From positions 1-36,220 of IMG/VR virus record IMGVR_UViG_3300025889_000044: a stretch of DNA of 36,220 bases; one strand, given 5' to 3'. The notes beneath the pieces were generated by a model. The model had not been told where the DNA came from. It worked only from the letters and a program-made list of their open reading frames with translations, and ran no database searches. The position numbers and the translations under genes were made by a program. Within the stretch, counting starts at the first letter, position 1, and each line of letters starts with the position of its first letter. This stretch comes from a virus. Below, in pieces: positions 9,346-27,142 of this stretch.

Positions 9346-9533
9346 CTGTCCAACAGCTTCTTTCGCTCCTAACTGCCACTATACTTTCTAGCATCTCTGT
9401 GGTGGCTTGGGCTTATGATAAGTTTGAGACGAAAGAGGCGAGCGTGGAAAGGATCGTCAGGATCGAAGCAAGGCTTGACCGTATCGAAAACAAAATCGAC
9501 CGCATCCTTGAGCGAGCGCCAAATCGAGAGTGA
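9342..9533 (+). CDS. Short membrane-anchored coiled-coil protein
   Basis: 63 residues, start overlapping the lipoprotein stop (ATGA). Residues 4-24 are a hydrophobic anchor (LLSLLTATILSSISVVAWAY), followed by a charged coiled coil with clear heptads (VERIVRIEARLDRIENKIDRIL). The order lipoprotein then membrane coiled coil is the reverse of classical Rz/Rz1, but the pair could serve as outer and inner partners of a small spanin. Equally it could be a holin accessory. The VRR-NUC gene begins within or near its 3' end in another frame. Confidence 0.6.
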   Translation: MTVQQLLSLLTATILSSISVVAWAYDKFETKEASVERIVRIEARLDRIENKIDRILERAPNRE

Positions 9534-9858
9534 GATCCTACTCAAGCTAAACCAACTCCCGAATACATATGCCTGGAAGAATCATTCGATGGGTGTATAT
9601 GACCCCATGAGAAATACCTTCAGGAGGCTCTCAGGTTTTGCCATTAAAGGCGTTTCAGACATTCTAGGTATCCACCAAGGCAAGATGCTCTGCCTTGAGG
9701 TTAAATCGGAAAAGGGAAGGGTTAGGCCGGAACAAAGGGCCTTCCTAGATCGAATGAGCAGCCTTGGAGCTATTTGCGGCGTTGTGAGGTCTTGGCAAGA
9801 CGCTCAAGACGCTTTGCAGGGCTCAAGACCTGACAATCCCGACACGTCGGTTCTTTGA
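9415..9858 (+). CDS. VRR-NUC domain nuclease
   Basis: Up to 147 residues. The conserved core begins near SERQIESEILLKL and contains the PD-(D/E)XK signature: an early Glu, then VSDILGI and LCLEVKSEKGRVRPEQ, the latter pair giving the Asp and Glu-x-Lys of the active site. VRR-NUC proteins are stand-alone phage nucleases that cut branched DNA, comparable to Holliday-junction resolvases. The start is uncertain: the first ATG (9415) gives a basic N-terminus that merely shadows the upstream coiled-coil gene, whereas TTG 9508 begins right at the domain. Neither has a strong ribosome binding site. The 3' end overlaps the convergent zinc-ribbon gene by 89 bp. Confidence 0.8.
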   Translation: MISLRRKRRAWKGSSGSKQGLTVSKTKSTASLSERQIESEILLKLNQLPNTYAWKNHSMGVYDPMRNTFRRLSGFAIKGVSDILGIHQGKMLCLEVKSEKGRVRPEQRAFLDRMSSLGAICGVVRSWQDAQDALQGSRPDNPDTSVL

Positions 9859-10297
9859 GCTTGCTGGTCGTGCTCTTGCCGCACCAGTGACAGGGTTGCT
9901 TGCGACAGTCCGAGCAGATTCCGCTCGCGTGGACGTATGAAACAATCCCACACTCATCACAGATCATTTGACTGTCTTTGAGCTTCTTAGGCCCGCGATG
10001 GTGGTCCATTACTTCTTTTTCTTTTTGCTCTTTTTCTTCGATAGCCCTGCTTGATTGAGAGCGATTGCTATGGCTTGCGCTCGGTTGAATCCCTCTCCCA
10101 TGAGAGTTCCGATGTTGGTCCCGACAGTCTTTTGGCTTTTGCCCTTCTTGAGCGGCATTGATGAAGTCCCTTTCATCATAACAATAAGCGCAGACTGGGC
10201 ACTTGCGCCAATGTAAAAGTGAAGGATGCAGCTCAGGTACTCCGGCGTGACATTCTGGGCAGATGCTATACTGGGATGAACCTTGGACCATATTCAT
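9770..10297 (-). CDS. Zinc-ribbon protein (long frame; internal start at 10009 likely)
   Basis: From ATG 10297 this frame gives 175 residues with three Cys clusters: an N-terminal zinc ribbon (CPEC ... CPVCAYC), then two C-terminal ribbons (CDECG ... CSDC and CHWCG ... CRDC). The middle, about residues 45-95, is polar, low-complexity and lies exactly opposite a more convincing small gene in another frame (10009-10158). The ATG at 10009, overlapping that gene's stop (TAATG), begins a clean 79-residue two-ribbon protein. The long frame may be one protein, or a short N-terminal ribbon gene plus the 79-residue gene. Zinc-ribbon proteins of this sort often bind nucleic acid. It is the last gene of the recombination operon. 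Confidence 0.6.
   Translation of the reverse strand: MNMVQGSSQYSICPECHAGVPELHPSLLHWRKCPVCAYCYDERDFINAAQEGQKPKDCRDQHRNSHGRGIQPSASHSNRSQSSRAIEEKEQKEKEVMDHHRGPKKLKDSQMICDECGIVSYVHASGICSDCRKQPCHWCGKSTTSKLKEPTCRDCQVLSPAKRLERLAKTSQRRK
10009..10158 (-). CDS. Small basic phage protein of the MPLKKGKS type, nested gene
   Basis: 49 residues starting with MPLKKGKSQKTV, continuing TNIGTLM...AQAIAIALNQAG and ending in a Lys/Ser tail. This pattern (basic start, NI-x-x-L, QAIAIAL-x-x-AG, Lys tail) is one I recognise from many short phage and prophage proteins; function unknown. An AAAGGG ribosome binding site (10168-10173) precedes ATG 10158 by nine bases. Two ATGs further upstream (10176, 10179) are possible but lack a site. 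The gene lies wholly inside the zinc-ribbon frame in another register, and its TAA overlaps the ATG at 10009. Confidence 0.75.
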   Translation of the reverse strand: MPLKKGKSQKTVGTNIGTLMGEGFNRAQAIAIALNQAGLSKKKSKKKKK

Positions 10298-11216
10298 CGA
10301 TCCAGGCAAATCCTGGAGTCCAATTAGTGATCTTCTGTGGGCTGTAGCTCAAAGCCTTGCTCTCAGGATCTCCAGCTACTCCAGAGTTGCACTCCCATCT
10401 GACTTGACCGCGCATCTGACGAAAGACTGCTCCACCCACATGGGTATGACCTACGATGCAATTATAGAGGGTATAACTTGCGTGATCGCCTAGCTTTGAG
10501 CGGTATCCATGATGAACCATGATGTTTCCAGGAAGCATTAACTCTTGGCGTGGGTCGAAGATTGTTTCCACACCTTCAAAACTGAATAGCCGCTGAATCA
10601 TTTCCTCAACCCAGTCTTCAGCAGCGGGATACGCTTCCAGCACTCGCTTTAGTGCTCTAGCGTCATGATTGCCAAGCATCTGTACGCAGCGAGCTTTTGG
10701 ACATCGCTTTTTAATTTCCTGCCAAAATACTTCATTGGCCTTTCGGCTAAGTTCCTGCTCATCTCGAGGCGTGTAAATGTTTAGGCTTCTGGGGTACTTG
10801 CTGTGCGCGTACATATCCCAAGCATCGCCGTTGATGATGACGATTTCGGGCTGATGACGCTCACAATAGGCATAGAATGCGTCAATCACTCTTTGATTGC
10901 AAAAGGGCCAATGAATGTCACTAATGACAGCAATCTTAGGCCATTTCTCAATCTTCTCTTGTTCTCGAGGCTGAAACGCATCAAGGACTTTCTTGATGTC
11001 TTTTTCGAAAACCTTGTTGGTAATTTTAGTTCTACGATCTGAATAAGTATCTAACCCTGCTGCTTGCAGCAGTGCCGAGTAGCTGCCAACTTTTTTTAAT
11101 TTGTTGTTCGCTCCAGTGACCCGAGTTTCAAACTCTGCTCTGGTGGGACTTCGACCAAGCTCCAGGGCTAGGTCTTTGACAGCCGCCACAAGCACATGGA
11201 GTAGGTCTTCTGCCAT
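10266..11216 (-). CDS. Calcineurin-like metallophosphoesterase with N-terminal DNA-binding-type repeat
   Basis: 316 residues. The catalytic domain (about 94-316) has all the blocks of the calcineurin-like fold in order: SDIHWP (Asp100, His102), NGDAWD (130-134), GNHDAR (182-187), VHHGYRS and GHTHVGG. The second metal site is intact, so it should be an active phosphodiesterase or nuclease. The N-terminal 60 residues resemble the short helical repeat attached to homing endonucleases (LGRSPTRAEFE, then SYSALLQAAGL), suggesting DNA targeting. It lies in the recombination operon next to RecT, SSB and the exonuclease, so a role in DNA-end processing is reasonable inference. No strong ribosome binding site is seen at ATG 11216. 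Confidence 0.85.
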   Translation of the reverse strand: MAEDLLHVLVAAVKDLALELGRSPTRAEFETRVTGANNKLKKVGSYSALLQAAGLDTYSDRRTKITNKVFEKDIKKVLDAFQPREQEKIEKWPKIAVISDIHWPFCNQRVIDAFYAYCERHQPEIVIINGDAWDMYAHSKYPRSLNIYTPRDEQELSRKANEVFWQEIKKRCPKARCVQMLGNHDARALKRVLEAYPAAEDWVEEMIQRLFSFEGVETIFDPRQELMLPGNIMVHHGYRSKLGDHASYTLYNCIVGHTHVGGAVFRQMRGQVRWECNSGVAGDPESKALSYSPQKITNWTPGFAWIDEYGPRFIPV

Positions 11217-25228: not shown

Positions 25229-26662
25229 ATGGCACAGTTCTCACTTACTACTGCCAGCAACCTGTTTAAGATTAAATACGGTAAATAGCTTGCCGCTCTG
25301 CTCAGTAATGAGCAGATGAAAACTTCCGAAAATCGGGGAAGGCTGAAACGCTAATCCCGAGGTTGACGACTAGGATGGCCGCAACCGTAACGCATAGGGT
25401 CAGGATGAATAGACCCCACGAGTCGGAAGCATCCCACGGGATGAAAAGATATGCTGACCTCACTGGAAAAGAACGGTGAGAACTATCGGATAAAAAGCCG
25501 GTAGGGTAACAATGCGAAGCTCGCAGAAAATACTTATAACTCAGCTAACGTCCTTCTTGGTCGCGTCAAGAAAGACTTTGATTTCGTTGGTAAGCGCATG
25601 GACATTGCTGTCCCAACCTCGTTTGCTGGTGGCGTGGGCTCTGGCTCGCTCCCTACTGCAAACTATGCAGCAATTCAGGACGCAGTGATCGAAGCCAAGA
25701 AGATGTACGCTGTCGGTCAGGTTGACCGTGAAGCAATCAAGGCAAGCTCTTCCAATGAAGGTAGTTTCATTGAGTTGACGAAGTTTAGCACTCAGAAGGC
25801 AGTTGAGAGCTGGATGCGTAACATGAGCCGCGCTCTTTTCAATGACGGCTCTGGATCGCTTGGCCAGTTCTCTGGCAATGCTTCTTCTGGGACTGCATCG
25901 GAGCCGGTCATCACTGTGACCGCTGCAAGCTGGAAGGAAGCAAACTGGGAAGAAAAGGATTTCGTCAACGTCAACACCCTCGCTTCAGTGTGGGAAGTTG
26001 TTTCCGTTGATCCTGCTACCCGCGAAGTGTCCCTCAGACGCATCTCTGGATCGGATGATCTGACCGCTATTGGTGCAGGTACGCACACCGTATATATGCA
26101 AAACTCTAAGGATAGCGATCCTCAAGGTCTCAAGGGCGTGCTTGATGCAACCTCTGGCTCGCTCTATGGCGTGACCGTTGGTCGCCGTTGGCAAGCCGCT
26201 GCACAGATCGCAGCCGGTGGAGCTGGTATCACCCCAGATGCCCTTAACCAGGGCATGATGGAGATTCAGCGAAAATCTGGTAAGGTGCCTAACCTCATCA
26301 TCACCAGCTTCACGCAGTATCGTAAGCTGTTGAACCTTCTCGAAGACCAGAAGCAGTACTTGTTGGACCCACGCGCAAGCGACCTGGTCGGCAAGATTAG
26401 TTTCCGTGGTCTTGAGTTTATGTCGGCAGCAGGCCCCGTTGGTATCTTCCCAGAGCGATTCTGCGAAGACGACCGAGTTTACCTTCTCAATGACCATCAT
26501 ATTACACTGAAACACCGGCCTGACTTCGGATTCTTTGACGATGATGGAACCGTATTCCTGCGTGATGCTGGTTCTGACAGCTACAGCTTCCGATATGGAG
26601 GCTACCTTCAGGCTTACATCGTGCCTTCGTTCCACGGTGTGATCTCGGGACTCGCAGTTTAA
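25229..26662 (+). CDS. Major capsid protein, split by a group I intron
   Basis: Two exons, join(25229-25282, 25517-26662), coding for 399 residues. Exon 1 (AAAGGA site 25215-25220, ATG 25229) encodes MAQFSLTTASNLFKIKYG; unspliced, it would stop two codons later at TAG 25286. Exon 2 opens KLAENTYNSANVLLGRVKK and continues in frame through MDIAVP to the stop. Following the scaffold and preceding small head proteins, a protein of this size is the capsid subunit; sequences such as GVTVGRRWQAAAQIAAGGAG and the C-terminal beta strands (RYGGYLQAYIVPSF) fit a HK97-type or related coat. Capsid production therefore depends on RNA splicing. Reading the gene from the ATG at 25598 would drop 45 residues. 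Confidence 0.88.
25283..25516 (+). ncRNA. Group I self-splicing intron without endonuclease
   Basis: 234 nt with all canonical helices in order. P1: exon CGGU (25279-25282) with GCCG (25292-25295), U-G at the splice site. P10: AGCUU (25287-25291) with the first bases of exon 2 AAGCU (25517-25521). P2 hairpin 25298-25315 with a GUAA loop. P3 25323-25329/25423-25429, seven perfect pairs. P4 25333-25338/25355-25360. P6 25361-25365/25382-25386. P7 25398-25403/25454-25459. P8 25430-25435/25438-25443. P9 25459-25463/25476-25480, and a last stem 25483-25489/25498-25504. The intron ends with G 25516. Only about 20 bases separate P7 from P3, with no room for an ORF. Confidence 0.93.
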
Positions 26663-27057: not shown

Positions 27058-27142
27058 GACCGCCTGTAACTCAGTGGTAGAGTGGCGCTAAAGCGACGGC
27101 TTAGGTGCATGACGGTGGTTCGATTCCACCCAGGCGGTCCCA
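27058..27142 (+). tRNA. tRNA-like element with atypical anticodon arm
   Basis: 85 nt. Acceptor strands 27058-27066 and 27131-27139 pair over up to nine bases, the D arm is ACTC/GAGT with an AGTGGTA loop, the T arm is GGTGG-TTCGATT-CCACC, and CCA is encoded. But the span between the D and T arms is 30 nt and contains no normal 5-bp/7-nt anticodon arm; the best stem there (27089-27092/27102-27105) carries a bulged A and a tetraloop, or a C-A mismatch with C at position 33. I cannot name an anticodon. The acceptor is also one pair too long for a standard tRNA. It may be a tRNA mimic, a decaying tRNA, or an mRNA processing site. Confidence 0.55.

Follow-up and report, generated by a model that had tools for sequence, protein, structure and literature searches.

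A predicted self-splicing, endonuclease-free group I intron in the major capsid gene of a P22/SU10-like virus

How can a phage make its major capsid protein from a gene whose reading frame closes after 19 residues? The question is raised by a 36,220-base virus record (G000, the whole of which is called the window here), whose gene set is P22/SU10-like, with P22- and SU10-type portal matches, an SU10 adaptor, and a weak SU10 capsid match. The capsid gene starts at the ATG at 25229 and, if left unspliced, yields only a 19-residue peptide ending at the TAG at 25286-25288. Exon 1 (25229-25282, plus strand, as for the intron and all its elements) comprises the 18 codons of MAQFSLTTASNLFKIKYG, ends in TAC GGT, and gives the same N-terminus as in intronless relatives. 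Exon 2 (25517-26662), which begins with KLAENTYNS, was assigned through its relatives and a match to the phrog_14242 major head protein (E 2.7e-15). The 234 nucleotides between them (25283-25516) are, as judged from the sequence, almost certainly a self-splicing group I intron that carries no endonuclease gene. Their removal leaves a single frame of 399 residues with no internal stop, the predicted junction being ...TACGGT joined to AAGCTCGCA, which reads KYG/KLAENTYNS in the protein. The first-pass annotation had already proposed this in-frame product and the need for splicing, and both hold. It had also extended the feature to 25600, which takes in coding exon 2 beyond the intron end at 25516, and had placed the stop directly after the exon; the stop is real but is the second intron codon, with one codon intervening.

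The intron was located by comparison with empty sites, by introns at the same site in relatives, and by a match to a covariance model built here (model R1; 25278-25536, 279.8 bits, the window being one of its training sequences). For the exon 2 segment at least 80 relatives were found among viral contigs; 71 alignable ones of these read straight through the site, with MAQFSLTTASNLFKIKYG followed by KLAENTYNSANVLLG, or a close variant, uninterrupted. Both splice sites are thus fixed independently of folding, and the proposed position of a 234-nt intron after codon 18 proved exact to the base. At the identical site an intron is present in four contigs (L016, L053, L025, and L032). Those of L016 and L053 are identical, which leaves three distinct sequences, or four with the window. 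All same-site introns have a stop (TAG, TAA, or TGA) at their second codon, and the last intron base is a G in all four distinct ones. A wider pattern scan for the KYG/KLAEN site revealed no further intron-bearing contigs, and two candidates found with a P1 pattern (L205 and L206) were chance matches without an intron. The annotated phage records contain no relative of the capsid protein. Two capsid relatives were found in the genome_contigs metagenome bins (L207 and L208), neither of which matches the intron covariance model. Exon 1 ends in TACGGT in all four distinct intron-bearing genes vs 8 of the 71 intronless ones (Fisher p 0.0004, relatedness ignored). P1 requires a CGGU at the exon end for its pairing; either selection for this pairing or co-conversion during transfer would produce the enrichment.

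An alignment of the four distinct same-site introns served for drawing helices P1 to P10. There, 259 of 260 base-pair cells form standard pairs (99.6%), and sliding the partners by one to three columns reduces pairing to only 33-43%. Compensatory change on both sides is found in 30 of 65 pairs, including pairs in P3, P7.1, and P10, compared with 16.5 +/- 2.3 in shuffles. In an alignment of 34 introns 96.0% of the cells are paired and 52 of 63 pairs have changed on both sides, but the fitting of this alignment followed the model structure, which makes the four-intron test the fairer one. The stand-alone fold has -88.1 kcal/mol, against -64.6 +/- 4.0 for shuffles (z -5.84; none of 200 as low). 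The earlier drawing of core helices from P1 to P10 has the support of covariation.

In P1 (25279-25295) the exon bases CGGU and the intron bases AA pair with UUGCCG in all four distinct introns, and the U25282.G25292 wobble at the 5' splice site is conserved in each. The P10 strand GCUU (25288-25291) pairs with AAGC (25517-25520), the first four bases of exon 2, and covaries with it: in L016 exon 2 begins with AAGU and the guide reads ACUU, an A-U replacing the G-C. P2 (25297-25316) is a hairpin of eight base pairs, five of them with compensatory change. The 5' strand of P3, CUUCCG (25323-25328), pairs with CGGAAG (25424-25429), four of the six pairs being compensated; in L032 the helix reads GGGGCG/CGCCCC. 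P4 and P5 (25334-25359), P6 (25361-25386), P8 (25430-25443), and P9 (25459-25480) were placed by the same-site alignment and its covariation test, and P9.1 (25483-25504) carries the loop motif GGATAAAAAGCC. The 5' strand of P7, CGCAUA (25391-25396), pairs with UAUGCUG (25450-25456), with U25455 bulged. Among the four same-site introns P7 does not vary, but covariation emerges when L052, L099, and others join the comparison (GCAUA/UAUGC vs GCGUA/UACGC), an A-U to G-C compensation being seen in 10 of 33 rows of the 34-intron alignment. The G25392-C25454 pair beside the bulge, presumed to be the guanosine-binding pair, does not vary in any of the 33 rows that have letters at this place. A candidate P7 of GGUCAG/CUGACC was rejected when comparison made GGGUC..GACCC a separate hairpin, P7.1 (25397-25416), in which four of five pairs show compensatory change. 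The group I core of P3, P4, P6, P7, and P8 can be drawn in full; P7 covaries in 34 sequences and the others in four. Together with the U.G in P1, the terminal G, and the G-C site in P7, this covarying core supports group I identity. P7.1 is the one covarying stem between P7 and P3; extra P7.1/P7.2 stems are a trait of subgroup IA. The group I intron in the thymidylate synthase gene td of T4 belongs to subgroup IA2 and has CGACUA/UAGUCUG as P7. The intron described here shares with it the bulged P7 with a G-C guanosine site, the extra stem between P7 and P3, and the plan of P1 U.G and P10. It differs in the P7 sequence, in the lack of an endonuclease frame, and in its capsid host gene.

Based on these features, the intron is real, precisely placed, and very probably functional, and we infer that it splices catalytically in the cell as follows. 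The capsid transcript would fold into the P3-P9 core, and P1 would hold the exon 1 end CGGU on the internal guide GCCG, the U.G wobble falling on the 5' splice site. There a P7-bound guanosine would attack, and the freed exon 1 would then attack after the last intron G, exon 2 being held through its AAGC by the GCUU of P10. Ligation would restore the 399-residue capsid protein. In unspliced RNA the stop in the second intron codon would halt translation at 19 residues, and the same stop plausibly keeps ribosomes off the folding core.

The first-pass annotation had suggested a check against the Rfam group I model. RF00028 matches the intron over its full length (E 0.0099 for the small stretch), but with 19.5 bits at a cutoff of 50, and a scan of the whole window with Rfam reported a tRNA alone and no group I intron. 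The gathering score is a detection threshold and not a defining trait. Even at E 1, RF00028 does not pick up the introns of L016, L025, L032, L052, and L099. Because such clearly homologous introns are missed as well, a miss says nothing against the intron, and its proposed use as a refutation is unsafe. As a separate observation, a tRNA-like gene lies at 27059-27142, downstream of the capsid gene and a gene for 108 residues. It has syntenic counterparts in L016, L032, L052, and L010, but no two of them share a called anticodon (aag, gac, cgg, gaa, and one irregular). Possibly the element is only tRNA-like and does not serve in decoding.

The motif in P9.1 is common to more than 100 viral contigs, as is the 3'-stem motif GGATAAAAAGCCNNNNNGGTAACAA, and the loop motif marks a large family of phage group I introns (L081-L160). 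According to the covariance model, each of the 80 listed motif loci contains the ribozyme, several of them more than once; the window and the five other intron-bearing records have one match each. Members that were tested (L099, L052, and the same-site set) are missed by Rfam or stay under its cutoff. Clostridioides, Staphylococcus, and Enterocloster phages contain weak DNA matches, most of which fall in the last third of the intron. Judging by 52 downstream frames, the host genes are mostly those for the tape measure protein, the large terminase, and the major capsid protein. Outside the same-site set, the introns most closely related to it are those of L099 and L052, both in capsid genes. 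In L052 (888-1149) a related intron splits a related capsid gene at a different position, HRPDFG/FFDDDG, and in L099 (4176-4439, minus strand), the closest one outside that set, the intron splits a distant capsid homologue at EREAI/ASRND. Capsid hosts were also confirmed singly for L090, L110, L112, and L158. The first-pass annotation had considered a capsid host uncommon, which does not apply within this intron family and not in the literature either, as group I introns in capsid genes are already published (PMC3706429). One is the intron in the major capsid gene of mycobacteriophage LittleE, reported to be efficiently spliced in late expression, which is likened here by description, and which contains an HNH endonuclease, unlike that of the window (PMC3706429). 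Another, according to its citation in PMC3706429, lies in a capsid-subunit gene of the lactococcal phage Tuc2009, so that a capsid gene is the host there, too. In being short and interrupting an essential gene the intron also resembles those of the Jug phages, which average about 206 nt, with mostly stand-alone endonucleases and metatranscriptomic support for the splicing of 37 of 76 introns; however, the Jug phages, which are huge and come from the gut, carry about 18 introns per genome, compared with one match per phage record here (PMC12363816).

How does an intron without its own endonuclease reach this site? Inside the intron there is no open reading frame of 60 or more residues (the longest stop-free stretch has 70 codons), and hence no endonuclease gene, as had been noted before; the same-site introns of the relatives encode no homing endonuclease either. 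Elsewhere in the family, an endonuclease VII type gene lies between the intron halves in L112 and L111, and HNH_3 genes accompany the ribozyme at the L119, L138, and L136 loci; therefore, endonuclease-bearing and endonuclease-free forms of the ribozyme coexist. Among relatives listed, the closest to the window's capsid (L001, exon 2 protein 96% identical) has no intron. The intron-bearing rows are scattered over the capsid tree, which places the window beside L001, puts L016 and L025 into one clade of six rows together with intronless ones, and assigns L032 to a different clade. The intron tree joins L025 to L032 (100/99) and the window to L016 and L099 (94/99), and the identities agree with this (window-L016 75%, L025-L032 79%, L016-L025 69%). 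This patchy distribution and the conflict between gene and intron trees are suggestive of horizontal movement, and we infer that the introns move between phages at KYG/KLAEN by recombination or by an endonuclease from elsewhere.

That a free-standing endonuclease cuts the intronless capsid site and mobilises the intron in trans, a process described as collaborative homing (PMC3984707), is a possibility that we consider rather unlikely. The patchy presence at one exact site would fit, as would the grouping of L025 with L032 and of the window with L016 and L099 against the capsid pairing of L025 with L016, but this conflict is borderline (AU p 0.0496 against a single same-site clade and 0.059 against L016+L025, 223 columns). 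HNH_3 genes do occur in two intronless near relatives of L032, L028 and L033 (G011:17448 and G013:14113), but at a distance of several kb from the capsid gene. The window and the five other intron-bearing records yielded neither an HNH_3 nor a GIY-YIG domain, and those five no HNH domain either; the search covered the phage records themselves, most of them fragments. Among the window proteins no standard homing-endonuclease catalytic domain was detected, the nearest candidates being a VRR-NUC protein (9415-9855) and a phosphoesterase (10266-11216, minus strand). The latter is calcineurin-like and has an N-terminal homing-endonuclease-associated repeat, an odd pairing.

The ribozyme might instead be kept because it regulates the capsid gene, splicing responding to growth state, GTP, or translation and thereby setting the timing or level of the shell protein. 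The second-codon stop in all four distinct same-site introns points in this direction, and a review takes in-frame stops to indicate that stalled ribosomes may help the RNA to fold and splice (PMC3984707). However, the same review describes such stops in many group I introns, so they are not specific, and L099 has no stop at that place. Most close relatives, including L001, do without the intron, which is thus dispensable, and regulation seems improbable. It is harder still to imagine that the intron is dead and the capsid protein made from the internal ATG at 25598, where an open reading frame of 354 residues begins: the N-terminal residues ahead of this ATG are conserved across the capsid family and the core pairs have been maintained through compensatory change, so that we give this reading next to no weight. 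A functional, self-splicing intron remains by far the best explanation.

For annotation, the consequence is that a pipeline would start the capsid protein at the internal ATG, giving a truncated product, and would overlook the N-terminus as well as the ribozyme. This intron lineage escapes standard Rfam screening, yet with a simple motif it can be recognised in more than 100 viral contigs, and such screens therefore undercount phage introns. We tentatively suggest, at somewhat less than even confidence, that one group I lineage has landed repeatedly in the HK97-type capsid genes of SU10-like phages, entering at KYG/KLAEN in the window set, at HRPDFG/FFDDD in L052, and at EREAI/ASRND in L099, and that the same site may have been reached more than once by introns without their own endonuclease. 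With its near-twins that have and lack the intron, this capsid family is well suited as a natural experiment on the spread of endonuclease-free introns.
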